Made by a program: the position numbers and the translations under genes
Shown here: in pieces, positions 5,958-46,100 of the stretch
Position numbering within the stretch: position 1 is the stretch's first letter
Layout: each line of letters starts with the position of its first letter
The notes under the pieces: generated by a model
Database searches by the model: none
Seen by the model: the letters and a program-made list of their open reading frames with translations, nothing else
What the model was told of the DNA's origin: nothing
Assembly: GCF_000526335.1 (NCBI RefSeq)
Contig: NZ_JAFW01000002.1
Location: 43,479-107,478, forward strand
Reading direction: 5' to 3'
Length of the DNA: 64,000 nucleotides
Origin: Arthrobacter sp. 31Y
Lineage (GTDB): Bacteria > Actinomycetota > Actinomycetes > Actinomycetales > Micrococcaceae

Positions 5958-7475
5958 TTAGTCGCCGGAGGGTTCCTTGGGACCGGGGTGTTGAGCCGCT
6001 TTTACCGCCGTGGTGGCCCCTGTGTAGCTATCGCGAGTGGCAGCTATCTGGTGGATTCGTTTCCGGCAGGCATACCACCCACACACCAGCAGTGCACAGA
6101 AGATCGAGGTGACAAAGGCGGTCCACGGCGAGTCGGCAAGGGTCATGATGAGGACGATGACCAGGAATACGAGCGTCGTATAGCCCGTATATGGTGCTCC
6201 AAACATCCGGAAAGCAGGACGCTGAATCCATCCTTTTCGGGACCATCGGAAGAGTTGGAGCTGGCACAGGATGATCGTTCCCCACGTGCTCACCACACCA
6301 ACTGCGGCAATGCTAAGAACGATTTCGAACGCATCCCCTGGAAGTAGGTAGTTCAGCGGAACGCCCAGCAGTGCAACGGCGGCAGTGGCGGCGATCCCAC
6401 CGTACGGCACACCGCTTCTGCTCATAAGCAGGGCGAATTTAGGGGCGGAGCCGGCGAAGGCCATGGAGCGCAGGATCCGCCCGGTCGAGTACAGCCCGGC
6501 GTTCAGAGACGATAATGCCGCAGTGAGCACCACGAGGTTCATGATGACATCCACGCCTTGAATCCCGAGGGTACCGAAGAAGGTTACGAAGGGGCTTTCA
6601 CCCTTGACGTAAGAGGTATAGGGCAGCAGGAGGCTGAGCAGAGCAACTGAACCAACGTAGAAGATTGCAATACGCCAGACAACAGAGTTGATTGCCTTGG
6701 GCATTATTTTTTCTGGGTTCTTGGTCTCGCCGGCGGCTGTTCCAACCAACTCAATGCCGGAGTAAGCAAAGATCACACCTTGCATCAGCAAGATCATTGG
6801 AAGGATACCTGCAGGAAAGAACCCTCCGTTGTCTGAGATGAGCTGAATTCCCGTCACGCCGCCTGTTGGTGTTCCAAAAATCACGAAGAAGATGCCGATA
6901 ACAAGGAACACCAGCAAGGCTCCGACCTTTATGAAGGCAAACCAGAACTCCATCTCACCGAAGACTTTTACTGAGATCAGGTTGAGCCCCAGCACAAGAA
7001 CCAAGGCGATCAACGCCCATGCCCATTGTGGAACAGCTCCTATCCAAGCGACGTACTTGCCGAAGAAGTTCATATACAAAGCAGCTGCTGTGATGTCACC
7101 AATAGTGGTTGTCGCCCACATGATCCAGTAAAACCAACCTGAAACAAATGCGGCCTTTTCCCCGAAAAACTCCCGCGCATAAGATACAAACGACCCGGAA
7201 GAAGGACGATGAAGGACTAGCTCACCCAACGCCCTCATGATCAAGAACGCGAAGAAGCCGCACAGAGCATAGGCGATAACCAAGGAAGGTCCTGCTGCCG
7301 CAAGCCGTCCGCCAGCGCCTAGAAAGAGGCCCGTTCCAATTGCGCCGCCGATCCCGATCATCTGGATCTGGCGAGACTTTAGACCCTTGTGATAGCCCGC
7401 GTCTTCTGCGTGCAAGGCTTGATCTGGTGCTGGACTGGATGTGTCTGTATCAGGTCCCGATAAGGAATTCTGCAT
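5958..7475 (-). CDS. APC-superfamily amino acid permease
   Basis: This 505-residue integral membrane transporter of the amino acid transporter (AAT/GabP-like) branch has about 12 hydrophobic segments. The family signature follows the cytoplasmic N-terminus: KSRQIQMIGIGGAIGTGLFL, then LGELVLHRPSSGSFVSYARE and FAYSGIELVGTAAGE. The track frame begins at 7646, but the ATG at 7475 follows GGAAGGACACCT and gives a normal N-terminus. As first gene of the minus-strand block it likely imports the substrate of the downstream enzymes. The region facing the divergent PLP gene holds its promoter. Confidence 0.88.
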   Translation of the reverse strand: MQNSLSGPDTDTSSPAPDQALHAEDAGYHKGLKSRQIQMIGIGGAIGTGLFLGAGGRLAAAGPSLVIAYALCGFFAFLIMRALGELVLHRPSSGSFVSYAREFFGEKAAFVSGWFYWIMWATTTIGDITAAALYMNFFGKYVAWIGAVPQWAWALIALVLVLGLNLISVKVFGEMEFWFAFIKVGALLVFLVIGIFFVIFGTPTGGVTGIQLISDNGGFFPAGILPMILLMQGVIFAYSGIELVGTAAGETKNPEKIMPKAINSVVWRIAIFYVGSVALLSLLLPYTSYVKGESPFVTFFGTLGIQGVDVIMNLVVLTAALSSLNAGLYSTGRILRSMAFAGSAPKFALLMSRSGVPYGGIAATAAVALLGVPLNYLLPGDAFEIVLSIAAVGVVSTWGTIILCQLQLFRWSRKGWIQRPAFRMFGAPYTGYTTLVFLVIVLIMTLADSPWTAFVTSIFCALLVCGWYACRKRIHQIAATRDSYTGATTAVKAAQHPGPKEPSGD

Positions 7476-7969
7476 AGGTGTCCTTCCAAAGACCGGCCGT
7501 TTGCAGGTGAACGCCGGTGGATGCGGAGTGCTGGGGGTATCTGATGTCTGCGCTGGACTACTCCACGCCGCGCCATGAAGATCGGTAGCGAGGAACACGT
7601 TGGCCTTGGACACAAGATCGCGCCGTTGTAACCTGGCGCGCACCATTCCAGCGATAACATCAAATTAAGCTCCGCCTCAGAGGGTCAAGTCGACGTTGAC
7701 CTGATGGGCTGAAAGCGTCGCATGCCCAGTGTGCCGCAAGTCACATACTAATGGCGCAACAGTTGCAGAAAAAACAATCATTCGACGCGATCGCGACTTT
7801 TCGTAGTCCAAAAGGCCTCGGTCCGTGGCTGTTTATTGCAGGAACATTCCTGTAGGACCACAACTCCCGAATGGTCAGCAGGGATGGACATCTCTCACAC
7901 AATTTCGCTCTGGGAACCATCTTTCCTGGCGCTCTCATAGGTTATTGCGCCCAGGGTTACCCTGAGTCC
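7476..7969. promoter_or_regulatory. Divergent intergenic region with two palindromes
   Basis: About 490 bases without a convincing gene separate the permease from the PLP enzyme. Two dyads are visible: GCAACAGTTGC (7756-7766) and CAGGAACATTCCTG (7839-7852, arms of 6 around CA). Their position between divergent genes fits operators for a catabolic regulator, but no regulator gene is seen nearby. Confidence 0.35.
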
Positions 7970-32510: not shown

Positions 32511-33005
32511 ATGTCTGCAGGTACGCCCAGACGTTCGGTCCGTGTTGAGGACGAGCTATGGAACCAGGCGCACGCCAAAGCAGTCAGGGAAGGGACCACC
32601 GTCGCTGAACGCGTCCGCGCCGGACTTCGGGAGTACGTCCACGGACCAGAAACCAGGCACACCATCGAGGACTCGCTCGTCTACCTCGTCCCTGACTCCT
32701 TTGAAGACCTGAAAGGGCCGGCCTCCGGTGTTGTGGAACTGCCCATTCACCTGGACTGGGGACCCGTCCGTCGCTACGATGTCGGCGATGACGCCAGCTG
32801 CAGGACGCTCTATCAGTTGACGCTGCAGAACTCGGGATCCACCGAGGAGATGGCCTGGTTCCTCAACGCCGGCAGACTGCTGGCTTTGTGGCCTTCCATG
32901 AGGCTCCCGGGCCGCTGTCGGCAGCTATGGAACGACGCCTTTACCCAGCTGCCCGCACACCGCGAAAGCAAGGAACATCCCGCATGGACGACGCTCAACG
33001 CGTAG
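32511..33005 (+). CDS. Ribbon-helix-helix-type regulator/antitoxin partner of AbiEii
   Basis: The ATG at 32511 follows TTGGAGGGAGGCC. Residues 5-45 (RRSVRVEDELWNQAHAKAV, then TTVAERVRAGLREYV) fit an RHH DNA-binding domain. The remaining 120 residues are an unrecognised acidic domain with PIHLDWGPVRRYDVGDD. The 164-residue gene overlaps the downstream AbiEii-like gene by 22 bases, and a 16-base palindrome lies upstream. Together these suggest an autoregulated two-gene toxin-antitoxin or abortive-infection unit. It differs from classical AbiEi, which carries a winged helix. Confidence 0.7.
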   Translation: MSAGTPRRSVRVEDELWNQAHAKAVREGTTVAERVRAGLREYVHGPETRHTIEDSLVYLVPDSFEDLKGPASGVVELPIHLDWGPVRRYDVGDDASCRTLYQLTLQNSGSTEEMAWFLNAGRLLALWPSMRLPGRCRQLWNDAFTQLPAHRESKEHPAWTTLNA

Positions 33006-33706
33006 CAACAGAAATAGCCCTTACCGTTCTCGCCGCCGACGGGTTCATCCTCGCCGGTGGACAAGCCCTTGCCGAACACGGTGTCATCCACAGGATGTCT
33101 GATGACATTGACCTCTTCGCCCAATACCGCAGCCACACCCCGGAGACCTTCGCAGCCTCCGTGGACAAAATCACGGACGCGCTTACCGTAGCCGGGTACT
33201 CGGTGCAGGTCACCCGCCAATACGAGGAGTTCGCCAGCCTGACCGTGACCAAGGCTGAAACGGCCGTCGTGATTGATCTTGGCCTGGACTGGTGGGAGAA
33301 CAAACCTGCAATCGTGGACGTCGGACCAGTCCTGTCGCTGAAGGACTCAGTCGCATCGAAACTGCTCACTGTCTACTCCCGCGGCTACGCCCGTGACTAC
33401 CTCGACGCCTACTCCATCCTCAGCAGCAAACGATTCACCCCACGCCGGCTGATCGAGCTCTGCCAGCGTAGAGACCCGCACCTGGACCTTGAAATGTTGG
33501 CCTCGGCCATGACTGGCCACCGTGCACTGGCACCCACTGAGTTCACCAAATACGGGCTCCCCGAAGCTGACCTTCAAAAGCTGGATCGAACTCTCACCGG
33601 CTTCGCAACGACCATCCGGCAGCACGCATCCCGGACAGGATCGCCAGCAGAACCCGTGGACCTAACCGGACTGGGGATCCCCGGGACAGGCCCCGAACTC
33701 GCTTGA
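32984..33706 (+). CDS. AbiEii/AbiGii-family nucleotidyltransferase toxin-like protein
   Basis: This 240-residue protein has the nucleotidyltransferase signature FILAGGQALAEHG followed by MSDDIDLFAQ (the DxD metal motif), then AVVIDLGLDWW and VLSLKDSVASKLLTVYSRGYARDYLD, which contains the conserved K and RDYLD box of the AbiEii family. Such proteins modify tRNA or other targets with nucleotides and act as toxins in phage-defence pairs. AAGGAACATCCCGC precedes the ATG. The short overlap with the RHH gene shows coupling. Confidence 0.85.
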   Translation: MDDAQRVATEIALTVLAADGFILAGGQALAEHGVIHRMSDDIDLFAQYRSHTPETFAASVDKITDALTVAGYSVQVTRQYEEFASLTVTKAETAVVIDLGLDWWENKPAIVDVGPVLSLKDSVASKLLTVYSRGYARDYLDAYSILSSKRFTPRRLIELCQRRDPHLDLEMLASAMTGHRALAPTEFTKYGLPEADLQKLDRTLTGFATTIRQHASRTGSPAEPVDLTGLGIPGTGPELA

Positions 33707-33771
33707 AGAAGATGTTGCATGATCCGGACTTCTGGCCGGCGACGTTGCCAGATTCCTCCCGTTCCGGCTGT

Positions 33772-34293
33772 CTATAGAAGCGGCCCGTACCCGGCGTCCA
33801 AAGTCCCAGGAATCGCCAGACCGCTAACCGGTTCGCCCTGCAGGGGCGTGGATCGTCTTTTAGCTGCGCTGTCAGCGGAGCGAACCTCCCTGACCGCACC
33901 GTCAGGGACTTCCGATTCCCGGCGTTGCGGCACGTCAGGGAGCTCCATCCACGTGAAGCCACTGCCGATCTGGTGACAGGGAACGCCGTCAACCAGCATG
34001 GTCCTGCAATCGCTGCGGTAGTCCTCCTCCTCGTTGAACTCCTGCCAGACCTGCCGAGCAGAGTCATACTCAAACTTGAGGGAGTCGTTGAACTCTGCTT
34101 GTGTAGCTGCCAGACGCAGGCATTCGTCCTGGGAGAAGTACGGCTTCGCCCACCCGTTCCAACGTTCCGCTGGAACATAGGCCGCCGTGAAGATCTCTGA
34201 CGGTTTCTCGCCTCCGGACCAACTCACCTGTTGCGGATCCGCTGAAAGTCTCGGAGGCCGTTCTGACTGGAGGATGAGTGCAGGGTTCTTCAT
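33772..34293 (-). CDS. Hypothetical protein, 173 residues
   Basis: GAAGGAACAATCCC precedes the ATG at 34293. The product is acidic and hydrophilic, with several aromatic residues (EIFTAAYVPAERWNGWAKPY, RLAATQAEFNDSLKFEYD, HQIGSGFTWMELPDVPQ) and a polar tail. There is no membrane segment or known motif. It lies convergent to the AbiEii gene in the accessory island. Function unknown. Confidence 0.6.
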   Translation of the reverse strand: MKNPALILQSERPPRLSADPQQVSWSGGEKPSEIFTAAYVPAERWNGWAKPYFSQDECLRLAATQAEFNDSLKFEYDSARQVWQEFNEEEDYRSDCRTMLVDGVPCHQIGSGFTWMELPDVPQRRESEVPDGAVREVRSADSAAKRRSTPLQGEPVSGLAIPGTLDAGYGPLL

Positions 34294-34352
34294 GGGATTG
34301 TTCCTTCCATTGATTGGTCAAAGGAAGATTCGACCCAGAACCGGCAGGGTGC

Positions 34353-34682
34353 ATGTCAACACCGTTTCCGAGGTCACGCGTAGCTGAAGCAAAGGCGTCG
34401 GGGCGGAACTTGCTGAGAAGGCGTCAGACGCCAGCTGCGGTAATGCCGGCCCCTGAGGCTACGTCCACTCCTCGCGAACCTGGTCCGCTGACGCCTGAGC
34501 AACTGGCCGATCTGGAGGCGGCCAGGGTGGAACTGCGGCAGGCTATGGAAGAGTCTCAGGTGGCTTCGTTCCGTGCCTGTAGCCGGAACGGACGCCATTG
34601 GGCCGAGGACCCGGATGCTATGCGGGCCATGGCAGCCTCGTTCAGGAGCATCAAGGACTTCACGACTGATGAGTGCGACTAG
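34353..34682 (+). CDS. Hypothetical protein, 109 residues
   Basis: Read from MSTPFPRSRVAEAKAS at 34353 rather than the upstream start at 34314, because GGCAGGGTGC precedes it; both are possible. The first third is basic and disordered, the remainder helical (LTPEQLADLEAARVELRQAM, DAMRAMAASFRSIKDFT). No motif recognised. It is divergent from the 173-residue gene. Confidence is moderate because the N-terminal composition is weak. Confidence 0.5.
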   Translation: MSTPFPRSRVAEAKASGRNLLRRRQTPAAVMPAPEATSTPREPGPLTPEQLADLEAARVELRQAMEESQVASFRACSRNGRHWAEDPDAMRAMAASFRSIKDFTTDECD

Positions 34683-34768
34683 CGGGCTGGACCAGACATA
34701 GCAACGACGGGCACGGCAAAAGGGGCCGGCCTTCCGACCTGGCTATCCCTTGAAATGCCGTTAGCGCC

Positions 34769-37700
34769 TCACTTGTTGCCTAAAAGATCGTCGTGCGGGA
34801 CGTCTTGGGTGAAGCCGTATCTGCGATCAAGTAGCCGACGCACTCCGGCCAAGTTCGGAGTGGCGCGGTCTATTTGAAGACCCAGTCGCCGGGCGATCGT
34901 GAGTGTAGCCAGTTGGAATTGCTGTTGGAGATTTCCCTTCGAAAAATGGTGCAGGGGGATGTTTGGGGTATCGGTTGTTTCTGGCCTGTTATGGATCTCC
35001 TGTGAGGCCTTCAGCCATTCTTGTGACCAGCCGCCGCTAACTTCCTGGTTGACGCGGTAGTTGGTAGCGACGTTGTAGATGGCCACCAGCAGGTGCCAGT
35101 CCAGCCAGCCCTCGGCTCGAAGTTCGTCAAGAATCCTACGACAAGTTGTGTTGTGCAGGATTCGAGCCAGCGTGAAACCAATTACTTTTGAAACCTCGTA
35201 GCGTTCCTTGATCATGTCGAGCCATTCAGGCTCTGAGAAGCCGGGGCCGTATGAAGTCGGCTGCTCCAAGGAGATGGCTGGCTTCGGGATAATGGTGTCG
35301 CCCGGCGATATCCGGTGATCGCCTTGAGAGGCGCTTAAGTAATGGGCCTCGTCGAAGAGCCCCGCTGTTTCGTCATATGGGCGCCCAAATGAGAGCTGGT
35401 TGAGGAAGCCTCTCGAGAAGGCATCGCCAAGCATGTCGAGGACTTGTTCCTGGGATAGGGCACTAAGACGAATCAAGAGGACGCCCACTGCGTGGAGAAT
35501 TTCCTGTTCTAAGTCATCCGCGTCCGTGTGATCGGTGTAAGGCAGGAGAGAGATCAAAGCGCTGAGCTGGTGGTTGTCATCCCTGAGCTCGACTCTCTCC
35601 TGATACTGCGGCCCTGCCAGACGAACCTCTACCTGAACGCTTTCATCCAACAGAACGGGGTCCTCTATTGCGAGATCGCACAGAAGAATTTGCGCGGCCG
35701 CCGCGAACCGCTCTGCAGCGAGTACGGTGGCCTTGTCATTGGCGCAGATAATGGTCCAATGCGTGCCGAGAGCAGAGAACGTCAAGGATCGTGTCGAGCC
35801 TGTGTCGCTGAATGGCAAGCTGCCAAGTTCAGTGAAAGATGTCTGGGCGAAGTTATCTTCGTCGAACGCAAACGAATCTTCTAACTCGTTGACGTAAGTC
35901 CAGATGACCTTGTCGTAGTCCGTCGCGGACAAAAGCTGTGTGAGGGTTTCTGCCAGTTCCGGTCTGAACTTTTTGGCGGCCATGCAGATCATGGTTTGGT
36001 GGAAGTCCAAGCCAACGAGATCCGGATGTTGCTCATGGTCAAAAGCGTCCTCCGCATAGGTTCCATGCGCCCTTAGAGCGAGCTGACTCAAGGCTGTGGC
36101 ATCGAGCCATGCGCCTGAGTCATAGCAGGCGGAGAATGCGCGGATCAGACCGTCCCCAACCAGATCAACGACATCTGCGTCCTGGGACGACACGGCAATG
36201 GAGGCGGCCGTGAGTGCGTATTTTTTTGCTGCGTGCGGGAGCTTTAGGTCCGAGTAGACGCTTGAGATGGTGAGCATGGCAAGGACCGAGCCGCGAAGGG
36301 TCTCGCCGTGGAACCAGCTGATCTTTGCCTTATGAAATTCCCGGAGGGCAAGGAGGGGCTTGCCGGAATGAAACAGGCTCAGAGCCCGGCTTCTACAGCG
36401 TTCCGCGACTGCGTTGTCGCCCTCCACGGAAGCGATGGCGTCATCCAGGGCGTTCCGGATCAACTCGTAGCTCTTGTGCGCGGCGAGTACTGGGCTGAAA
36501 GCCTCAAAGAGGTCGCATGTTGATTGCACCGGGAAAATCCGTGCATTGGGCAGGAGCACAGCTAGGTCCGAAAGCGTGGCCATGAGCGGGTCGATTCGAA
36601 TTTTTAGCTCTTCAGCGGATCCGGCCTTGCTAAGAATTTCTTGAAAGGTCATGTCCGATGCTGCTGCATTTTGGACCGGGGCTTCTGGCCGTCGCACCAT
36701 GCCTGTTACATCGGGATGGAACAGAACATGTGCTCGAGCAGCAAGAAGGTGGGCAACCGCATTCGGATAAACGTCCCGATCGGTGTCGGCCAGCAGCTCA
36801 TCAACCCGTGTCAAGACGAGCTGCAATTGGGCCATTAGGTGATCTGAAGTAGTCGTGGCAAGACCCGAAGCCCATGCTCCTTGCCAATACGAAATGAGAG
36901 CGCTGGCGTCCTGAAGGTCACCTGCCGCGGATGACGTGGCCGCGTAGGCCACAAAATCATCGATGTACCCCTCCACATTGGCCAGGGTTTCCTTGCCCCG
37001 AAGAGTCGCAACGACAACCTCGTAGCGCGCTTTCATCTGCACCTCTTCAGGAACAGCAGTTTTTGAGTTCGGAGCGAAGAAGGACTGCGCGTACTCCAGC
37101 CACTCGGCTAGGTCTATTTGAGCGTCCGGATCATGAGTGGCGTGACGGAGACCGGCCCTCACGGCGGCGAAATCGCCGGGGCTGCTCAGCGGATCTTCAG
37201 AGCCTCTGACACGTCGAAGCAGGTCCTGATACCACTGCGGGAGAGATACCTCGTTGGTTGGCACCAAGTGAGATGGCAGATCGAGCATCTTCTCAGCCAC
37301 CCACACCAGATCAGGTTCGACCAGAAACGATGAGATTGCCAGCGCATCAAAAATTTCTAGATCAACCGCATACTCCTGACGCGCAAAGTCCTGAAGCTCA
37401 TGCCGCATACCCACAGGCATGTTTTGGGACAGAAAGTACGCGACCCTCTCTACAGGTTTTCCTTCAGATGCGACCTTCTTCAGATCAGCCTTAACCTTGT
37501 TTTTAAGCTGAGTGCGCTGAATCGTGCAGGCAACGACGAGCGGTTCCGTCGTCGCACGCCCTACGAAGCCAGTAGCCCTTGGAAGCTCTTCGGGAAGCGA
37601 CGAAAAGAAGGTCTCTCCATCGCGGCCCTGATCCCCGCCGCTGCTCACAGGCCCGGTTGCCGGGAGGATATTGCTGCTTATCCTCCGTTGGGCAATACGG

Positions 37701-37795
37701 AAGCAAATGTTCTCGAACTCGTGGTGTCGGTTTTGCGCGCCGAGCTGATCCAGCTGGAAACGAATGAACGTTTCGGTTTCTACACGGGTGACCAT
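34769..37795 (-). CDS. Large protein with N-terminal nuclease-like (PD-(D/E)XK type) domain and helical repeats
   Basis: Read from MVTRVETETFIRF at 37795, preceded by AGGATGGACGC, giving 1008 residues. The first 160 residues resemble a restriction-endonuclease fold: ENICFRIAQRRI, SSGGDQGRDGETF with conserved acidic residues, and VVACTIQRTQLKNKVKADLK in place of the usual E/Q-x-K strand. The remaining 800 residues are predicted mostly alpha-helical, TPR-like, with no P-loop. It starts 57 bases after the Abi_2 stop on the same strand, forming a two-gene operon. A sensor plus nuclease defence effector is inferred. Confidence 0.75.
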   Translation of the reverse strand: MVTRVETETFIRFQLDQLGAQNRHHEFENICFRIAQRRISSNILPATGPVSSGGDQGRDGETFFSSLPEELPRATGFVGRATTEPLVVACTIQRTQLKNKVKADLKKVASEGKPVERVAYFLSQNMPVGMRHELQDFARQEYAVDLEIFDALAISSFLVEPDLVWVAEKMLDLPSHLVPTNEVSLPQWYQDLLRRVRGSEDPLSSPGDFAAVRAGLRHATHDPDAQIDLAEWLEYAQSFFAPNSKTAVPEEVQMKARYEVVVATLRGKETLANVEGYIDDFVAYAATSSAAGDLQDASALISYWQGAWASGLATTTSDHLMAQLQLVLTRVDELLADTDRDVYPNAVAHLLAARAHVLFHPDVTGMVRRPEAPVQNAAASDMTFQEILSKAGSAEELKIRIDPLMATLSDLAVLLPNARIFPVQSTCDLFEAFSPVLAAHKSYELIRNALDDAIASVEGDNAVAERCRSRALSLFHSGKPLLALREFHKAKISWFHGETLRGSVLAMLTISSVYSDLKLPHAAKKYALTAASIAVSSQDADVVDLVGDGLIRAFSACYDSGAWLDATALSQLALRAHGTYAEDAFDHEQHPDLVGLDFHQTMICMAAKKFRPELAETLTQLLSATDYDKVIWTYVNELEDSFAFDEDNFAQTSFTELGSLPFSDTGSTRSLTFSALGTHWTIICANDKATVLAAERFAAAAQILLCDLAIEDPVLLDESVQVEVRLAGPQYQERVELRDDNHQLSALISLLPYTDHTDADDLEQEILHAVGVLLIRLSALSQEQVLDMLGDAFSRGFLNQLSFGRPYDETAGLFDEAHYLSASQGDHRISPGDTIIPKPAISLEQPTSYGPGFSEPEWLDMIKERYEVSKVIGFTLARILHNTTCRRILDELRAEGWLDWHLLVAIYNVATNYRVNQEVSGGWSQEWLKASQEIHNRPETTDTPNIPLHHFSKGNLQQQFQLATLTIARRLGLQIDRATPNLAGVRRLLDRRYGFTQDVPHDDLLGNK

Positions 37796-37851
37796 GCGTC
37801 CATCCTGCACTACGGAAGGGCGGGGGACTGGCATTCACGACTTTGCGGAAC

Positions 37852-38877
37852 CTATTCGGGATTTGCCTCCTGCTGAAGGTAAGGCTGCCAGAATTCATCT
37901 GATCCCCAGTCGGGCGGGAAGCCCATGGGATTCAGCGGGACGGAGTCGAACTCGTCCAGGAGATCCCTCAGCCGTGTGGCCCAGCCCGAGCCGGGACTGA
38001 TGGTGCCTAGAACTGTCTGAAGTGCGACGAGCATGGGGAAGACGCGGGATCGGCGGTACGTTCCTCTGCCTCGGAAGGTTTCAGTGTCGGCCAGCCAGGC
38101 AACGCCTGCTGAACGAGGGATCCGGGGGGCTACACCGAACTGCCTGTTCCATACCCGGCCGTGGTGTGCGCAGAGGTTGCGGGTGTATTGGAAGGTACCC
38201 AGCCATGAGCTGAGGAGCTCGTCTGTGATCCCGAGCTGTCGGGCGATCTCTTTCCGGTCTTCACGGTCAGCGAGGTTCCGGTACAGGTACATGAGATCAC
38301 CGAAGGACAGCATTTCGATCATCATCCACGACGGCGGCAAAGTCGGCTCATCATATGCCGAGAGGTAGTGCCGCATGAAGGACTGCTTTTTGGCGTCTTC
38401 TGTCGCCCTTTGAACGTTTCTGGGTGGATGTTCCTGTAGCCGTTGCAGGTCTCGTTCCAGCCGGTCCTTCTCGTCGTCCCTGGCTTTCGTGAGGGTCTGC
38501 AATAGCCGGTCATGATCAGGTTGGCGTTGAAAGTGGGAAGCGTCTAGATACCAAAAGGGATCAGCACTCTTGAGAGACATGTGGTTTGAGAGGGTGGCAC
38601 GCAGGGCCACTTCGAAGCGTTCCAGCGCGTCCATGATCAGCAAACGCAGCCGTCGGTCGAAAATATAGAGCTGCAGAACGCCGTCAAAGTCCGCACCGCT
38701 ACGGAAGCGATGCGCACCCCCCGGCACCTGGTGCGGGATCATGTAAGGCGACAGCCGGTAATAACCGATCCGCGCTAGGTACCGCAGGGCTTTGTCTTCA
38801 TCGGGTATGAGCAGGCCGCGCGAGCGTAGCTGCTCGAGTTGCTCGATCAGGCCCAGCGCGGGCTTTTCATAGCGCAT
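37852..38877 (-). CDS. Abi_2 (AbiD/AbiF-type) abortive infection protein
   Basis: This 341-residue protein belongs to the Abi_2 family. The N-terminal part shows LEQLRSRGLLIPDEDKALRY and ARIGYYRLSPYMIP; the centre has LYIFDRRLRLLIMDALERFEVALRA. The C-terminal half has the HEPN RNase motif RNLCAH (R-x4-H) followed by HGRVWN. HEPN Abi proteins cut cellular RNA on phage infection. The upstream 38881-39016 region forms several hairpins and hides the ribosome site. The nuclease-like gene follows in the same operon. The protein appears intact. Confidence 0.88.
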   Translation of the reverse strand: MRYEKPALGLIEQLEQLRSRGLLIPDEDKALRYLARIGYYRLSPYMIPHQVPGGAHRFRSGADFDGVLQLYIFDRRLRLLIMDALERFEVALRATLSNHMSLKSADPFWYLDASHFQRQPDHDRLLQTLTKARDDEKDRLERDLQRLQEHPPRNVQRATEDAKKQSFMRHYLSAYDEPTLPPSWMMIEMLSFGDLMYLYRNLADREDRKEIARQLGITDELLSSWLGTFQYTRNLCAHHGRVWNRQFGVAPRIPRSAGVAWLADTETFRGRGTYRRSRVFPMLVALQTVLGTISPGSGWATRLRDLLDEFDSVPLNPMGFPPDWGSDEFWQPYLQQEANPE

Positions 38878-38880
38878 TGG

Positions 38881-39016
38881 ATTCCCCCCAAGAATGTCCG
38901 GGGAATGAAAGATCCCCCAATTTGCGCAGTACCTGTGACGGCCCGAGGCGTGGGGGATATGTTGTTCCCAACTGTATGGTGCTCGAACAGATAATACAAC
39001 TCCGGCTTGTATTATC
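38881..39016 (-). ncRNA. Hairpin-rich leader RNA of the Abi_2 gene, abiF-RNA candidate
   Basis: On the minus strand, from 39016 towards the gene: a perfect 10-base hairpin GATAATACAA/TTGTATTATC (39007-39016 with 38990-38999), an ATCCCCCA/TGGGGGAT long-range stem (38951-38958 with 38912-38919), and ATTCCCC/GGGGAAT (38900-38906 with 38881-38887). The last stem includes the G-run that would serve as the Shine-Dalgarno site. Abi_2 genes are known to be associated with a conserved upstream RNA; whether this is that motif is untested. Confidence 0.55.
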
Positions 39017-39207
39017 CACCGTCGAGATCGGCATCATCAGCTCGCCTGAATGATCGGAACCAAGTAGGACGAGTGAAGAAGGGGCGCGGTCGCGGAGGTT
39101 CGTTTGGCACTGGATTCCGTTGCCAGCCTCGTGTGACTTGCAGCGCTCAGCTTCGCCGCCTAGGGTGGCCGGACCGGCGTGCCTTGGCACTTCGGGAGGA
39201 GGCACGT

Positions 39208-39882
39208 ATGCCCGTTCAGCGGAATGGGCGGATTATTTGGGGGTTGTTCGTGAAGTCTAAAAACATGTTTGACGGCCGGAGACTGCGAGGAATAGGGACG
39301 ATCATTCGTGCTGGCCTCCTGACCGGGGTGGTGATAGTTGCGGGGGTGGCTCTCCCGGTTGCCGCCCATGCAGCGCCTGCGGGATCCGTGGCCGCTGCAG
39401 AGATTGGGCCCGGCCCGGACCACTCGGGCACAGCCGACGAAGTATTTGTTGAGCAAGCTTATGGAGGGCTTGGCACGGCGCCAGCACAACCGGGCGAGGG
39501 CGGGGAACTGAGCACCATGAATGCTCAGGTGGGGCTTAACCCATACGCATGTGCCGGTTACACCCAGCGTGTACACCCGAGTATGGGGTTCGCTTCGCTG
39601 CACGCCGGGATCGTCGATTGCCGCAGCGCACCGAACTACCAGGTTTCAGGCACTGAAATCATGAAAAAGGGCTGGTTCAATGTTTGGCATCGTTCTGCGT
39701 TTTTCAGCAAGGAAGCTGCTTTCCGTCAGGCCAAGCTGGACGTGAACGCAAAGGCAGTGTGCGGCAACACCTCTCAGCAGACGTACCGGGGTAACGGCTA
39801 TCACCGGGTGGAGATTCACGGAACAAACTTCTCCGGACGCACTTCCAGCGATATTGAGACCCGGTTCGGTTGCGACGCCTAG
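39208..39882 (+). CDS. Secreted hypothetical protein, cysteine-containing
   Basis: CGGGAGGAGGCACGT precedes the ATG at 39208. The 224-residue product has a signal peptide (hydrophobic AGLLTGVVIVAGVALPVAA ending AHAAPAG), a disordered stretch, and a folded domain with four cysteines (YACAGYTQRV, GIVDCRSAP, KAVCGNTSQQ, RFGCDA) likely forming two disulfides. It overlaps the start of the lipoprotein gene by 13 bases. No family recognised; an external or mating-surface role is possible. Confidence 0.7.
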   Translation: MPVQRNGRIIWGLFVKSKNMFDGRRLRGIGTIIRAGLLTGVVIVAGVALPVAAHAAPAGSVAAAEIGPGPDHSGTADEVFVEQAYGGLGTAPAQPGEGGELSTMNAQVGLNPYACAGYTQRVHPSMGFASLHAGIVDCRSAPNYQVSGTEIMKKGWFNVWHRSAFFSKEAAFRQAKLDVNAKAVCGNTSQQTYRGNGYHRVEIHGTNFSGRTSSDIETRFGCDA

Positions 39883-40457
39883 CAACACCGGTCACGTTGA
39901 TAGTGATGGCCGTTTTGGCGGCCATCACTATCAACGGCTGTACACCGGAATCTGCACCGGATGCCCGGGAGGAAAGCCGCAACGAAACCCAGCTGAAAAC
40001 CATGCCTGAAGCACTCAACCAGCCGCCGACGTTGACGCTGAACGGTAACCCGGTGGCCCCCTATCTTGTTGATTGGGCCTCGCCCACTGGCACGATCCAC
40101 ACGGACGCCACGGGACACGCAGTGCCAGCACTCAAAGCATCGGGTGATTTGGAATTCTCCGTTGGGTCCTCAGCCGAACCTGCTTCCGTGGAGGTCGTCG
40201 CCTATTCCGGACACAGCACTGACATTGATCCCATGTCAGAACCAACACTTCGATGGGATTGCGGGACAACAAACGGGACAGGATGCACGTACTCCCTCAA
40301 GGGGGAAACTCTGCAAATAATCATCGACGGTGACTCCGTTCCAGCCGCTCAAAGCGTCGTCGGGATAAACCTTGAGTATTTCGCAAGTCCCGAGCTGAAC
40401 AAGAGCCGGTTCGCGAACGTTGCGAGTTGGGTCATGGACATCGAAGTAGCGCCTTGA
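39870..40457 (+). CDS. Putative lipoprotein
   Basis: A TTG at 39870 gives MRRLATPVTLIVMAVLAAITINGC, a basic n-region and hydrophobic core ending in a degenerate lipobox (TINGC). The 195-residue product is beta-rich after the cysteine, with PPTLTLNGNPVAPYLVDWAS and RWDCGTTNGTGCTYSLKGETL. A GTG or ATG inside the signal would remove the charged n-region, so TTG is preferred. It is coupled by overlap to the secreted-protein gene upstream; the pair may act together outside the membrane. Confidence 0.65.
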   Translation: MRRLATPVTLIVMAVLAAITINGCTPESAPDAREESRNETQLKTMPEALNQPPTLTLNGNPVAPYLVDWASPTGTIHTDATGHAVPALKASGDLEFSVGSSAEPASVEVVAYSGHSTDIDPMSEPTLRWDCGTTNGTGCTYSLKGETLQIIIDGDSVPAAQSVVGINLEYFASPELNKSRFANVASWVMDIEVAP

Positions 40458-40486
40458 GCCCAACACCGAGGAATCCAAGAGGAACT

Positions 40487-41140
40487 GTGAATCTAATACC
40501 GCAGGCTGACCTGCCGCCCTCCCTGGGTCGATTCTTCGCTGGATCAGAAGCGAAGGGGCGGACTATCGCCGTGGGCGAATATTTCCCCGCACCCTACGAG
40601 TCTTACGCGCGTGTTCTCAACCCGGCCTTCACCAATGACGGCGCGAGCGTCCGGTGGCAGGATGCAGCCGAATTCGATGTGGACGCCAGCACACGGTGGA
40701 GTGATGTGATCTTCCAAGGCACCCGCGACCAACACATGCTCATCGACCCCGAGCGCGGGGCTCTAGAGATCACCACAGCTACGGCTTTGGCAAAGCTGCT
40801 CTCTCGGCATACAGAAACCCCGGATGACTGTTGGTTCCTCACCTGGGACGGGTACAACCTGTCCTCGCAGGAAAGAGGGGCCGCAACCGTCGTTGTTCCG
40901 TTAGAGAGGACCATGCACGTTTTGCGTGGTTCTTTGAATGCCGACCCGGCCGCTGTCTCGTCCAGAGCTGAGCCATTGTGGTGGATACCGAACGATCGGA
41001 AGTGGTGCGTGGGCAATGACATCTATGCACGGAGCGTCTTCGTAGGTGGATCATTTGCAGCTATCGGAGAGGTCCTCAGCGACCCGCTCCTGGAAGCCTA
41101 CACAGTGTCACCTCGCCAACTGCTCGACACCGAAGACTGA
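40487..41140 (+). CDS. Hypothetical protein, 217 residues
   Basis: A GTG at 40487 with AAGAGGAACT before it starts MNLIPQADLPPSLGRFF. The sequence is soluble, with PFAP-like and Trp-rich patches (DCWFLTWDGYNLSSQERG, SRAEPLWWIPNDRKWCVGND, DIYARSVFVGGSFAAIGEV). The ending GSFAAIGEVLSDPLLEAY resembles proteins of unknown function with immunity-like contexts, but I make no assignment. It is 29 bases downstream of the lipoprotein gene. Confidence 0.65.
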   Translation: MNLIPQADLPPSLGRFFAGSEAKGRTIAVGEYFPAPYESYARVLNPAFTNDGASVRWQDAAEFDVDASTRWSDVIFQGTRDQHMLIDPERGALEITTATALAKLLSRHTETPDDCWFLTWDGYNLSSQERGAATVVVPLERTMHVLRGSLNADPAAVSSRAEPLWWIPNDRKWCVGNDIYARSVFVGGSFAAIGEVLSDPLLEAYTVSPRQLLDTED

Positions 41141-41233
41141 AGGCGAGCCAAGGAGCTACGCGGCATTTCACAATCGGATTGACCTTGGAACCTTACCGGG
41201 CCGAGGAACCCCGAGGCGCTTGTGTGCTGGCCT

Positions 41234-42124
41234 CTATGTTTCTTTCTGCTTCATACGTACCACCGGCACACCGTAGTCCGACTCTTGGTCCACGGCGATG
41301 ACTTCCCAATGGGTATCCGGCGGAAAGATGACCTGGCAGGCGGTGGTGCCAAGATAATCGGCGTTGTAGGTGAGCTCAAAGAGTTCCGCGCTTCGATGAT
41401 CCTTACAGGGAAGACACAAGCCACTCGTTGCCTCCAGCACGACCAGGACCCTTAGCTCGTACGACTCACCTGAACTGTCCAGAGGATATTGCGCAGCAAC
41501 CTCCGGGCTTGTCGAGGCGAAACCGAATCCTCGTTCAACGTACTCGGTGTCCCACGCCGTGCCGTGGGTCAAGTGTCCGCTGATCCCTGCAATATCTGGT
41601 GCGGATTCATCCGGCTCTTTGGGAACGGTAATCCCTCTGAACAATCTCATCGGCTCTTTGAACACCAGGGCTTCTCCAAGATCATCAAAAATGGTCCGAG
41701 CGTCGCTAACGAAGGCTTGATTGGACGGGTAACCGGCCCAATCGATGGCAGCACCAGCTCCCCCTTCCAGGCTGTTCCCACGGCGAATGAGCCGGTTAAG
41801 GTAATAGATGCTGGTGGTCGTCAGCAGACCAACCACGGGTATCTGCCAGGGCCTCAGCGCTGACAGCTGCTGTTCGCCGTGGAAGGAAAGGGCCAATTCT
41901 TCTGCACTGGAAAGTGTTGCTGGGACGTGAGCGGCGACGGCAGCGACCCGCTTGGCATTCTCCTTTTCACGTTCTTGCCTTTCCAGGGTCTCCGGCCACG
42001 TTTCGTAGACATCATTGGATCGCTCTTCCTCTTCGGCGTCCCTGCAACCGTCAATCGAATTCTCTGTGAAGTGCCACCGCACCCCACAGGTATCCGGAAT
42101 CGGACAACGCCTGGGTAAACGCAT
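41234..42124 (-). CDS. ADP-ribosyltransferase-like protein, possibly catalytically altered
   Basis: The start MRLPRRCPIPD at 42124 follows GGAAAGG; an ATG at 42148 is also in frame. The 296-residue product has an N-terminal helical domain with a hydrophobic segment (IPVVGLLTTTSIYYLNRLI). A C-terminal region resembles R-S-E type ADP-ribosyltransferases: FRGITV with the NAD-binding arginine and GFGFASTSPEVA with the STS box. The usual E-x-E before LLPPGT appears as TACQVIFPPDTHW, lacking the first glutamate and with Q in place of the second. It may be an inactive or diverged ART. Confidence 0.55.
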   Translation of the reverse strand: MRLPRRCPIPDTCGVRWHFTENSIDGCRDAEEEERSNDVYETWPETLERQEREKENAKRVAAVAAHVPATLSSAEELALSFHGEQQLSALRPWQIPVVGLLTTTSIYYLNRLIRRGNSLEGGAGAAIDWAGYPSNQAFVSDARTIFDDLGEALVFKEPMRLFRGITVPKEPDESAPDIAGISGHLTHGTAWDTEYVERGFGFASTSPEVAAQYPLDSSGESYELRVLVVLEATSGLCLPCKDHRSAELFELTYNADYLGTTACQVIFPPDTHWEVIAVDQESDYGVPVVRMKQKET

Positions 42125-42175
42125 GAGAGAAAGCCTTTCCGTGGTCATGTGCTCAAGGGATCAGTGAAGCCTAAC

Positions 42176-42203
42176 GTCACGGTCTGACAGCCGTGACTAG
42201 ACT
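42176..42203 (+). promoter_or_regulatory. Promoter and dyad of a possibly leaderless gene
   Basis: GTCACGG (42176-42182) and CCGTGAC (42191-42197) form a perfect 7-base dyad directly before a -10-like TAGACT (42198-42203). The ATG follows 8 bases later (42212) with no ribosome site, as in leaderless actinobacterial transcripts. Confidence 0.4.
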
Positions 42204-42211
42204 GGCCCGCC

Positions 42212-43030
42212 ATGAGTACTTCCCGCTCCGAGGAGCCCAAACCCATCAGGATCCAGGTTTCCCACCCCGAGAGATTCTGGTTCGCTCTCAAAGCGGACCT
42301 TGCGTGGTTGACGATCGACCCCGATGTTGAGGACAACCACCGGAAACACCCCGACCGGGACACCATTCGATGGGCGGCGGTGGGGGAAGTAGTCCAGAAG
42401 TGCGCGACGAAGCTCATGAACCAGGACTACACACCTGTAGAGGACGAAGAACCAAACGCATTTAATCTGTTTTTGCCCGACAACTTCTCCCTCACTCCTG
42501 AGGAACACAACATCGTTCAGAGCTGGTTTTGGGGCGGGGAAATGCTCCGCAACGACCCGTGGTGTGATACCAACTCGAACGGCCGGCACCGCCTGTGGAA
42601 CGTCTGGAAGGCCTCACCGCACCTGATTCTTCCGATCTACTCGGAGCTCCTCCGTATGGAAGACGAAATACCATTCATGAACGAAGAATTCGCCCGAGAC
42701 CTCCCTGTTAATGCAAAAGCAGGGACGCTGAAAGTCCCAGCCGACGCGCCGGTACGGGCCCGCTCAACCGCTTACTTCAAACAGCTGGAAAGTTACGCCG
42801 CAAAGCTTCCAGAGACTTCAGAAGACGACTTTGAGAACCATCCGGTGACCTATGAGAGCCCGGAAGAGGAAGCGCCGGAGCCTGTTGAACGAGAGCCAGC
42901 AGGCAGCCCAGCCTCGCAGCAATATGAACCGGAGAGCGCGGTCCCGCAGCGAGCACCGCAAGAAAGAGCGTTCCAGCATGACAAGCCGAGGACAAAATTT
43001 GCCGGTTGGATAAAGCGGTTGTTCGGCTGA
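42212..43030 (+). CDS. Hypothetical protein, 272 residues
   Basis: The ATG at 42212 is probably leaderless. The first 190 residues are a folded domain rich in Trp and Asp (RFWFALKADLAWLTIDPDVED, SWFWGGEMLRNDPW, LWNVWKASPHLILPIYSELL). A long acidic, Pro/Glu-rich disordered segment follows, then a basic C-terminus ending AGWIKRLFG, which could be an amphipathic membrane-touching helix. Family not recognised. It is divergent from the ART-like gene with a 63-base spacer containing the operator-like dyad. Confidence 0.65.
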   Translation: MSTSRSEEPKPIRIQVSHPERFWFALKADLAWLTIDPDVEDNHRKHPDRDTIRWAAVGEVVQKCATKLMNQDYTPVEDEEPNAFNLFLPDNFSLTPEEHNIVQSWFWGGEMLRNDPWCDTNSNGRHRLWNVWKASPHLILPIYSELLRMEDEIPFMNEEFARDLPVNAKAGTLKVPADAPVRARSTAYFKQLESYAAKLPETSEDDFENHPVTYESPEEEAPEPVEREPAGSPASQQYEPESAVPQRAPQERAFQHDKPRTKFAGWIKRLFG

Positions 43031-43075
43031 TCGGCAGGCTCCCTGCGTAACGATGCCCGCCGTGATCCATGCCTT

Positions 43076-43108
43076 AGTGCCGCCTACACCGAGAATGTAG
43101 GCGGCACT
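43076..43108. terminator. Terminator between convergent genes
   Basis: Thirteen-base arms AGTGCCGCCTACA (43076-43088) and TGTAGGCGGCACT (43096-43108) pair perfectly with a 7-base loop. It ends both the plus-strand gene at 43030 and the long minus-strand methylase/helicase gene. Confidence 0.85.
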
Positions 43109-43116
43109 TTCTCCCG

Positions 43117-46100
43117 CTACAGGGCAGGGCCCGAAGACTCCTGAACGAGGTGGAGTGGGTCCGGCGCGAACTCCACCTCGGGGCCTTCCGGCTTGTCCGG
43201 GGCGGTTGGCTCGGTGGTGGTGCCGGGGGTCAGGGTGGTTACCTCTGGCGCGTAGCCGTGCTGTTCGCCTTGCCTGATGGACACCAGACCCTGGTCCGTG
43301 CGAATGCTCAGATCGTACTCGCCGGATGCCCTTTCGTGGACGCCGGTCAGCGCACCGGTGGCTGTGACGATCTGGTGGTAGCGGTCGTTGTCGGTGGGCT
43401 TGAACCCTGTGGCGCAGACGTCTTCCCCGAGGGGGACGTCGTTGACGTGCCGGATGCTGAACCGTGGAGGCGTGAATCCCTTCCCCGAGGTGGTGGTGGT
43501 CTTGTGGACGGGAACGGTGTCAGCCGCCGTAGCCTCCACCCACACCCTGGTCTGCTCTTGTTCGAGCAGCACGTAACGGATGTGCTCGACAGGTCCCCGG
43601 TGCACAGCCAACACGGTCGCATCGTCGAAGCGTGTCCGCTGGAATGACTTCAGCTCCTGCAGGGAGATTTCCTTCCCGGTCAGGCTCACGCACTGGCCCG
43701 GGTCCAGGTCCCTCACTTTCCTGCCGTAGCGGGCGTCGAGGTCGGTTGAGACCCAGGGCACCATGGCCGGCCCGTATCCGGTCTGCCAGTCCTCAGTCTC
43801 GGACGGGGAGACGACTTCTAAGGCCCCGGATTCGTGGCTGACCTCAAAACTGTGGGAACGGCCCGCGACATTGACCCGTACCGGGACACGGTGGCTGGAA
43901 ATCCGGCCTTCAGCGACTTCCGCGACGAGCTCATAGGACGGGTCGAAGGTTTGGTGGATCCCGAACCCGTCCACGCCGTGGATCACGGCTGTGCCCGGCG
44001 CGATCCTGATCCCGTCTCCTTCTTTCAACAAGGCCATGCGTCGGGTCGGTCCGGGGTCCTCGATGTCGATCGCGATGTCCTTCCGCTCCGCGGCGCTGAG
44101 CAGTTGCCGGACTTTGACGTCCCTGGTCTCCGGTTTCCACGTGCTGTTCAGGTACCAGAGTTCCTGGCGGCGGGAGAACTTGAACCCGGCGTCCTTCAGC
44201 AACCCGTGCAGGACGGTGGCATCCCTGCCAACGCCCGTCATGCTACTGCCATCGGCCGTGTGTTCCAGCACCGGGGCTACTCCCCCACCATCAGCTGAGG
44301 CTGCTGCCGGTGCAGGCGTTTCCGAATGTGCAAGGGCGGGGCCGAGGTTCACAGTGGTGGCGGTGAGGTGGTCGCTGAGGAACGTGCCGCCGTCGATGAT
44401 GGCATCTTCCGGTGCCGCAGGCGGATCGATGGGTCCGACCGGGAAGGATACGTCCATGCCGGTGTGGTCCAGCGGGGTTTCGGGTAGTTCCCCTTCCCAG
44501 AGGAGCACTTCACTGTTTTCCAACAGCGCCCAACGGGTCCTTGCTCCTCCTGGTTCTTCCACCACTACCCGCATGGTGGCCTGGGCGTAGCGGTTTGCCG
44601 CAGGAACCTTAGTGACCTCGACGAGCTGGCCCGTCACGTACAGGCCCTTGTTCCATACGGAGGTTTCGCCCTTGGTCGCGTTCATCCGCACCCAACGGCC
44701 CTGCAACTCAGAGTTCAAGGACCCAGCAGAAATTCCGGTCACCGTGCCGGGGGCTTGCAGGGACGCCTTCTCCAGTTCCGTCAGCGCACCGTAGCGGCGG
44801 GCGTGGACGCTGATCTTCTGGTCACTGCGCCGCCTGCACGTTCCGGTGGCGCCGTCCTCGAACCTGTAGTTCAGGTCCACCATCGTGCCTCCACCGACAC
44901 CGGTCACGGTGACGTTGTCACGCCGGGCCTGGTTACGGTCCAGCTGGTGTGCGCTCACCACATCCCCGCACCGGAGCTCGGCAATCGTGGGCCCGTAGTT
45001 GTCGGGGAAAAGCGTGGTTGTTTCCTCGACGGTGACGAACCGGCCCGGCTGGTAGGCCACCACCCGCGGCACGTAGCGTCCTTGGGTTTCCCGGGCGTCC
45101 CCGGTGACCGGGTCAGCGAACCGGGGCCCGTGGTAGAGGCTCCGGCCGACGGCCACGTCCCCACGCTGGCCAAGCCCGTCGACGTTTTCCAGGAGCACAT
45201 CACCGGGCAGGAACATATCGGCCCTGACCACGGCGGCCTGTGCTGCTTCCTTAGCCGCCTCAGCGGCGAGCTGTTCGGGATCCAGAACGCCGTGACGCAG
45301 CACCGGGCTGCCCGCGTTTCCCCACCGGTTGTATCCGAACGCGTGCTTGGCCCCGTGGTCATCGGTCACGACCCACTCATTGGAGCTGACCTGAACGGTC
45401 CCGGTGACCATGACCGTCCTGCCGGTTGGCAGGCGCGTATCCGGGTTCAGTGCCGGGCGTTGCAGGGTGATCCGCTCCCCCGTCTTCACGTCCGCGTCGG
45501 CGGTGGTGACCGCATCCGTCTCGGGTACGTCCAGGAACACCCGTTCGAATGGGGTCAGTGATGTCTGCGGCCGGCTGACCAGTTCAACGCTGGCATACGG
45601 GCTGAGGTTGAGCGGTTCAGGGGCCTCGTCAGTTTCCGCGAGCTCGTGCACCACGACCTTCTCAAACCGGATAGCTGTTTCTACCCGGAACAACGCCTGC
45701 CCGCGACCTGGGACGCCGGTGACGACGTCCCCGTCCCTCAGGTCACTGGCATGGACGTTGCGCAGGTCCCCGGCCAACAAGCTCAGGGTCTGTCCCATCA
45801 CGGCTGGGGCTTCGGTGTCGGTGTCGTCGGTGTCCTGGTTCAAGCCCATGTCGTTCATCAGGTCCGCGATCTTCAACTGCACACCGGCGAGTTCGGCGGC
45901 GTGGTCGAACGGCCGGGCGATGGTGTCCTCCAACGACGGAACCGCCGCCTCGTGGGCAGCTTGTTTGGCGCGCAGGTCATCCCGGATATCGGCAGTTGCC
46001 GCCGCTGTGTTCTCCAACCGGCGCAGCATCCCCAACGGCTCAGCCGTAACCAGGGCGTCCCAGTCGACATGGACGGTGGCGGCCTCAGAACCACCAATCC

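Follow-up and report, generated by a model that had tools for sequence, protein, structure and literature searches.

A candidate defence cassette pairing an abiF RNA/Abi_2 unit with the gene for a nuclease-like repeat protein in Arthrobacter sp. 31Y

The window analysed here is a stretch of 64,000 nucleotides from Arthrobacter sp. 31Y (contig NZ_JAFW01000002.1, positions 43,479 to 107,478), in which two genes lie in tandem on the minus strand. The first, abi_2, encodes a protein with a HEPN motif and is preceded by an RNA of the abiF family, and the second encodes a large protein with a predicted nuclease-like N-terminus and a region of helical repeats. The features of the locus, all on the minus strand, are as follows, with what each rests on in brackets.

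38971..38999, minus: putative promoter, TTGTAT (38999-38994), a 17-nucleotide spacer and TACAGT (38976-38971) (by eye)
38912..38957, minus: abiF RNA (RF03085), 46-nucleotide long-loop form (cmscan, 30.6 bits, E 0.0019)
38883..38905, minus: putative small hairpin over the likely abi_2 ribosome-binding site (minimum free energy (MFE) fold and three-way comparison)
37852..38877, minus: abi_2, abiF-like predicted HEPN RNase gene, 341 residues (Pfam, PADLOC and PDB matches)
38164..38181, minus: HEPN motif R233-NLCA-H238, the sole RxxxxH of the Abi_2 protein (sequence motif)
34769..37795, minus: large-protein gene, 1008 residues, readable from 37834 (start common to relatives)
37280..37795, minus: PD-(D/E)XK-like N-terminal domain, residues 1-172 (predicted fold)
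37613..37633, minus: acidic motif D55-x-x-R58-D59-x-E61, GGDQGRDGE (alignment of 39 modules)
37496..37519, minus: Q93, at the usual place of the lysine, and invariant K100 (alignments of 39 and 30)
35873..37249, minus: TPR-like alpha-alpha repeats, residues 196-654 of the 1021-residue reading frame (VIA search, low-confidence full-length model)
35093..35113, minus: conserved EGWxDWH motif near the C-terminus (W910 in 25 of 26, D912 and W913 in 26 of 26)

Both open reading frames lie where the initial annotation had placed them and are intact, abi_2 with its R-x4-H motif. Read from the ATG at 37834 the second frame would encode 1021 residues; the MVTR start at 37795 is common to the three loci that carry the pair and gives the 1008-residue protein originally described, with a gap after abi_2 of 56 nucleotides, one base off the 57 first counted. 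Both genes are under purifying selection, with NG86 non-synonymous rates (dN) of 0.08-0.19 against synonymous rates (dS) of 1.1-2.1 that are near saturation.

The Abi_2 protein matches Pfam PF07751 over the entire domain (positions 1-184 of 184; E 2.5e-52, 178.3 bits against a cut-off of 25.6), is the PADLOC AbiD match (E 9.5e-65) and matches PDB entry 8vz6 (E 3.3e-51), given as PbAbiF in a figure legend of PMC12737573. Judged from these matches, the first gene product is almost certainly a HEPN protein of the Abi_2/AbiF family, the AbiF part of the assignment being by homology. For C. difficile AbiF/RCd22, PMC12373285 reports toxicity, its neutralisation by the RNA and a requirement for the R and H residues; there the abiF RNA is an antitoxin that binds the AbiF protein, and transcription mostly halts before abiF. 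At another locus, L049, the Abi_2 reading frame overlaps the next by 4 nucleotides, hinting at other two-gene Abi_2 arrangements.

The abiF RNA of the window lies 34 nucleotides upstream of the abi_2 start codon, on the same strand, and was found in a permissive search of 701 bases against all of Rfam. Its 30.6 bits fall below the Rfam gathering score of 37, and a default Rfam scan gave no match at the site; the mir-374 and Atu_L6 matches of the permissive search are at chance level. The structured RNA that had been described as opening the operon is real and upstream of abi_2, and belongs to an already known family; a new RNA family was rejected. Among 16 Abi_2 loci of the bacterial family that were scanned, 13 have the RNA; L039, L042 and L048 gave no match, although in L039 the motif is visible by eye. 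The other two paired loci (L036/L008 and L037/L010) carry an identical 30.6-bit long form. The stem is nearly invariant among the loci compared. The length is 46 nucleotides in the three paired loci against 36-37 elsewhere, and the U-tract 3' of the stem reads AUCUUUC in the paired loci as opposed to an unbroken run of 4 or 5 U in seven non-pair loci.

The hairpin over the likely ribosome-binding site has a core, UCCCC...GGGGA, that is kept in the three paired loci. In the MFE fold of L036 the 5' arm of the abiF RNA pairs with the downstream GGGGA instead, and the centroid fold keeps both hairpins. The window and L036 leaders fold no better than shuffled sequences (z -1.06 and -0.71), and no terminator was called between the abiF RNA and abi_2, where the U-tract is interrupted. 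We infer that abi_2 may be controlled by weak attenuation and start-site masking combined, which the folds suggest rather than prove. Further upstream, the promoter-like element recurs in the other two paired loci as TTGTAT, 17 nucleotides and TAAGGT or TACAGT; a consensus promoter scan of the window misses it and calls TGGATA-N16-TATTAT at 39018-38991 instead. An inverted repeat, GATAATACAA-N7-TTGTATTATC, at window positions 38990-39016 overlaps the -35 box and may be an operator. At the corresponding site L037 has a shorter palindrome, AATACAAC...GTTGTATT, and L036 has none.

The large protein had been proposed to have a PD-(D/E)XK-like N-terminus and the structure prediction, run as a check on this, bears the proposal out, the model showing an alpha-beta core fold that is nuclease-like over about the first 170 residues. 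Its best structural match is the N-terminus of Avs4, which we take to be a nuclease domain. D55, D59 and E61 are invariant in all 39 aligned N-terminal modules. The usual place of the lysine is occupied by Q, E, D or N in this alignment and by K in a sister branch, and seven residues past Q93 lies K100, invariant in 39 of 39. A nuclease role for the large protein is likely.

The exchange of domains among relatives bears on the same question. Matches by tblastn that are limited to residues 245-1017 (L083), 264-1018 (L084) and 413-1016 (L073) point to the same scaffold with another N-terminus. This scores as Cap4_nuclease in L073 (E 4.9e-8, 33.8 bits, over the cut-off of 26.2) and, just under that cut-off, in L084 (E 2.2e-5, 25.2 bits); L083 gave no Pfam match. 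The N-terminal module itself is found ahead of NB-ARC/AAA_16 and TPR domains in L087 and L089, and in L088 ahead of a part with no Pfam match. The swaps thus suggest that the module occupies the position of an effector nuclease, and they are the strongest argument for function, though an indirect one. In L096 a short GGDGGRD-type module precedes a segment whose LDTSAVL motif is reminiscent of PIN domains.

Of the roughly 800 residues of helical repeats described initially, those at about 196-654 stand and the rest of the span is unsupported. The full-length model was built from 5 sequences, has a mean predicted local distance difference test score (pLDDT) of 52 and was used for the repeats alone; it is mixed alpha/beta at about 680-790 and poor from 807 on. 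The window protein contains no P-loop pattern; its one Pfam match is at chance level (E 0.092), and PADLOC and NCBIfam gave nothing up to E 1. Across 27 alignment members, the window included, Pfam gave no match at E 0.01 and PADLOC a weak one for a single member (CARF-HEPN, E 0.0043), so that the family, which spans several phyla and also occurs on plasmids, carries no name in either database among these members. Neither the large protein nor its profiles brought up anything useful when solved structures were searched by sequence, and a search of open PMC text, by keyword rather than sequence, gave no paper on the gene pair or the family. PMC13092281, on DefensePredictor, gives 13 validated systems with PD-(D/E)XK domains and names TPR in figure legends. 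A single-sequence scan of viral_contigs, limited in its reach to close relatives, found no phage-borne large protein; phage records gave one match of 139 residues, to the N-terminal part (E 4e-9), and the sister branch of the module occurs in three viral contigs. A 180-residue protein is encoded just upstream of the 31-33% branch of the large protein in L018, L019 and L030 (Arthrobacter-type), near 7390-7942, and its L018 copy gave no Pfam or PADLOC match.

The association of the two genes was followed in 30 genomes that have the large gene, made up of 28 scan loci, G041 and G000. Abi_2 lies in tandem with it in three (window, L008 and L010), divergently in one (G041/L002) and elsewhere in four, and is absent from 22; the tandem pairs all fall in one Arthrobacter/Pseudarthrobacter group. 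A tblastn search with three Abi_2 proteins of 29 large-gene loci (L002 and L008-L035) and 17 further regions (L073-L089) found Abi_2 in L002, L008 and L010 only. Abi_2 matches occur in 111 of 395 genomes of the bacterial family, and are thus common without the large gene, and among 29 fetched Abi_2 loci (L036-L064, with flanks of about 1.5 kb) the large protein is present only in the two paired ones. Homologues of the two genes do occur side by side, which leaves the initial proposal unrefuted on this point, and the two-gene system of the initial annotation holds at this locus for its Abi_2/AbiF identity, RNA, nuclease-like fold, repeats and defence context; it does not hold as a general arrangement. 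A conserved obligate operon is rejected, each gene being found mostly without the other.

Where the pair does occur it forms a discrete block. The blastn blocks common to the window run from 39005 to 34785 in L008 and from 39013 to 34782 in L010, each extending from the promoter region through to where the large gene ends, and the rest of these 19-kb loci gave no match to the window. The abi_2 DNA is closest between the window and L008 (80% against 73-74%), and the window Abi_2 protein is also nearest to that of L008 (86% against 77-78%), by identity alone and not by a tree. For the large gene it is L008 and L010 that are closest (78-84% against 69-78%), and in the large-protein tree the window joins L002 with a support of 100/100. 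The switch of affinity sits near the gene junction. From these differing histories and the same pairing, it follows on the sequence evidence that the pair has recombined near the junction and yet been retained.

The contig that holds the window is 107,478 bases long, is one of two in the genome and carries a TrwC relaxase. An AbiEii-type nucleotidyltransferase gene lies after the relaxase gene, at window 32888-33706 (PF08843, E 9.9e-14). On the Pseudarthrobacter psychrotolerans plasmid NZ_CP047899.1 the DNA of the relaxase region (annotated there in pieces), the AbiEii-type gene and a giant helicase gene are all retained, and its blastn matches break off at window 33556 and start again at 43434. 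Since window 33557-43433 is absent from this related plasmid, the cassette is cargo in a variable site between the AbiEii-type and giant helicase genes. Elsewhere the large protein is in some cases encoded on megabase contigs (4.8 Mb in G041; one titled chromosome in G065, which is L030). Neighbours were scanned as 30 proteins hand-picked from 159 open reading frames and drawn from 16 of the 28 genome loci, favouring long gene-like frames near the large gene, and a defence-type Pfam domain was found near it in 8 of the 16 (L013, L014, L020, L021, L023, L025, L027 and L031). Toxin-antitoxin, HEPN, Shedu, AbiE or ABC-three-component genes accompany the scaffold in seven of ten annotated plasmid regions (L073, L076, L077, L078, L080, L083 and L084) and are lacking in L079, L081 and L082. 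In a Blastocatellia bin (L020:3426-10979) an Avs2 gene lies directly upstream of a large-protein relative, 42 nucleotides before it on the same strand, and on a Streptomyces plasmid (L076:8323-9780) a HEPN-annotated gene with no Pfam or PADLOC match follows the large protein.

The reading that we favour, and consider somewhat probable, is of a plasmid-borne two-part defence cassette in which an AbiF unit and a sensor-nuclease are served by one promoter. By analogy, the abiF RNA and Abi_2 would make up a type III-like unit of RNA antitoxin and HEPN RNase, the RNA binding and silencing the RNase until phage infection or plasmid loss, the presumed triggers, frees it to cut RNA and stop growth. 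The large gene would encode an NTPase-free sensor-nuclease in which an Avs4/MspJI-like PD-(D/E)XK domain is joined to a TPR-like solenoid; to judge from its fold, the domain swaps and the neighbourhoods, it probably cuts DNA on recognising a phage component. The two proteins would most likely be separate layers that have a common leader and travel together. Joint control of both genes is plausible, and it is by inference that the labels 'two-effector' and 'RNA-controlled' extend to the large gene. The cassette is narrow, mobile and recombining, its AbiF half known and its other half an unnamed nuclease-sensor family.

Several observations weigh against this reading. The place of the usual catalytic lysine holds a glutamine, the loop with the acidic motif falls below pLDDT 50 in the N-terminal model, and the model gives no Foldseek match below E 0.001, while RPB5-type polymerase chains, which are not enzymes, make up 27 of its 50 VIA rows. 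The viral fold library likewise gave RPB5-like top matches, none below E 0.001. It is unlikely, however, that the domain is a restriction-endonuclease fold kept as a binding module, given the invariance of D55, D59, E61 and K100 in 39 of 39 modules, the Cap4-like nuclease that takes the N-terminal place in two relatives, and the best structural match to the Avs4 N-terminus, a nuclease domain. As to the pairing, it is tandem in just 3 of the 30 genomes; neither L002, whose large protein is the closest relative (82%), nor L009 (73%) has a tandem Abi_2, that of L002 being of another type, divergently oriented and without an abiF RNA match. The L010 large gene also has an in-frame stop inside the nuclease domain, so that it may be dispensable there, unless the stop is a sequencing error.

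The genes could be chance neighbours in a defence hotspot, a complete AbiF toxin-RNA unit next to a stand-alone one-gene nuclease system and co-transcribed with it only by accident, as the 27 of 30 genomes without a tandem Abi_2 and the disagreement of the gene histories (L002 for the large-protein tree, L008 for Abi_2 identity) would suggest. We regard this as a serious if somewhat unlikely explanation, since order, strand and short gap are alike in three genomic contexts, with blocks that end near the promoter and the large-gene stop, and the pairing persisted despite recombination at the junction. A tighter connection, in which the solenoid protein is the phage sensor and switches on Abi_2, for instance by cutting or displacing the abiF RNA, would fit the tandem arrangement at three loci with an Abi_2 alongside at a fourth, the HEPN-annotated gene of L076, and an abiF RNA that differs in loop and U-tract from the other readable ones. 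Such a true two-component system nevertheless seems improbable with each family mostly found without the other, one of the three paired large genes interrupted, and the L076 protein without a Pfam or PADLOC match. Plasmid maintenance or plasmid competition in place of anti-phage defence would suit the TrwC relaxase on the 107-kb contig, the nearby AbiEii-type gene and the type III toxin-antitoxin behaviour of abiF-type units described in PMC12373285. It appears fairly unlikely when set against some large-protein copies on megabase contigs (G041; G065 = L030) and the relatives that have anti-phage genes nearby, among them Avs2, restriction systems and Shedu.

The two-part cassette could also belong to a broader picture, which we put forward tentatively and think doubtful as a whole: undescribed NTPase-free sensor-nucleases may be widespread, with Cap4-like and Avs4-like effectors swapped, and in soil actinobacteria have been captured by an RNA-antitoxin unit, one altered abiF RNA setting the level of both RNase and DNase. 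Should the large protein prove active, it would show that an Avs-type combination of nuclease and repeat sensor can do without the NTPase. In the paired form an RNA antitoxin would gate two nucleases, and the locus would offer a natural experiment on abiF RNA control under an altered terminator U-tract. The large-protein family also matters in itself, for its spread over phyla and plasmids without a Pfam or PADLOC name (27 members scanned) and for its effector swapping.

Among known systems, the window locus resembles AbiF/abiF-RNA (C. difficile AbiF-RCd22 and PbAbiF, 8VZ6) in the Abi_2 domain, the RNxCAH motif and a same-strand abiF RNA directly upstream, and differs in the second gene downstream and in an RNA with a longer apical loop, an interrupted U-tract and a hairpin possibly over the start region. 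MspJI/AspBHI-type endonucleases combine a modified-base-binding domain with a QxK motif, whereas the large protein has no second domain recognised by Pfam and its lysine is not at the QxK place. Although the window protein has no PF14130 match, the Cap4 (DUF4297) dsDNA nuclease takes the N-terminal position on this scaffold in L073 and L084. In contrast to Avs4 and the other Avs/STAND sensors the large protein has no P-loop pattern, Pfam NTPase or PADLOC Avs match, but it shares with them a restriction-endonuclease-like N-terminus at the same place and a TPR-like sensor part.

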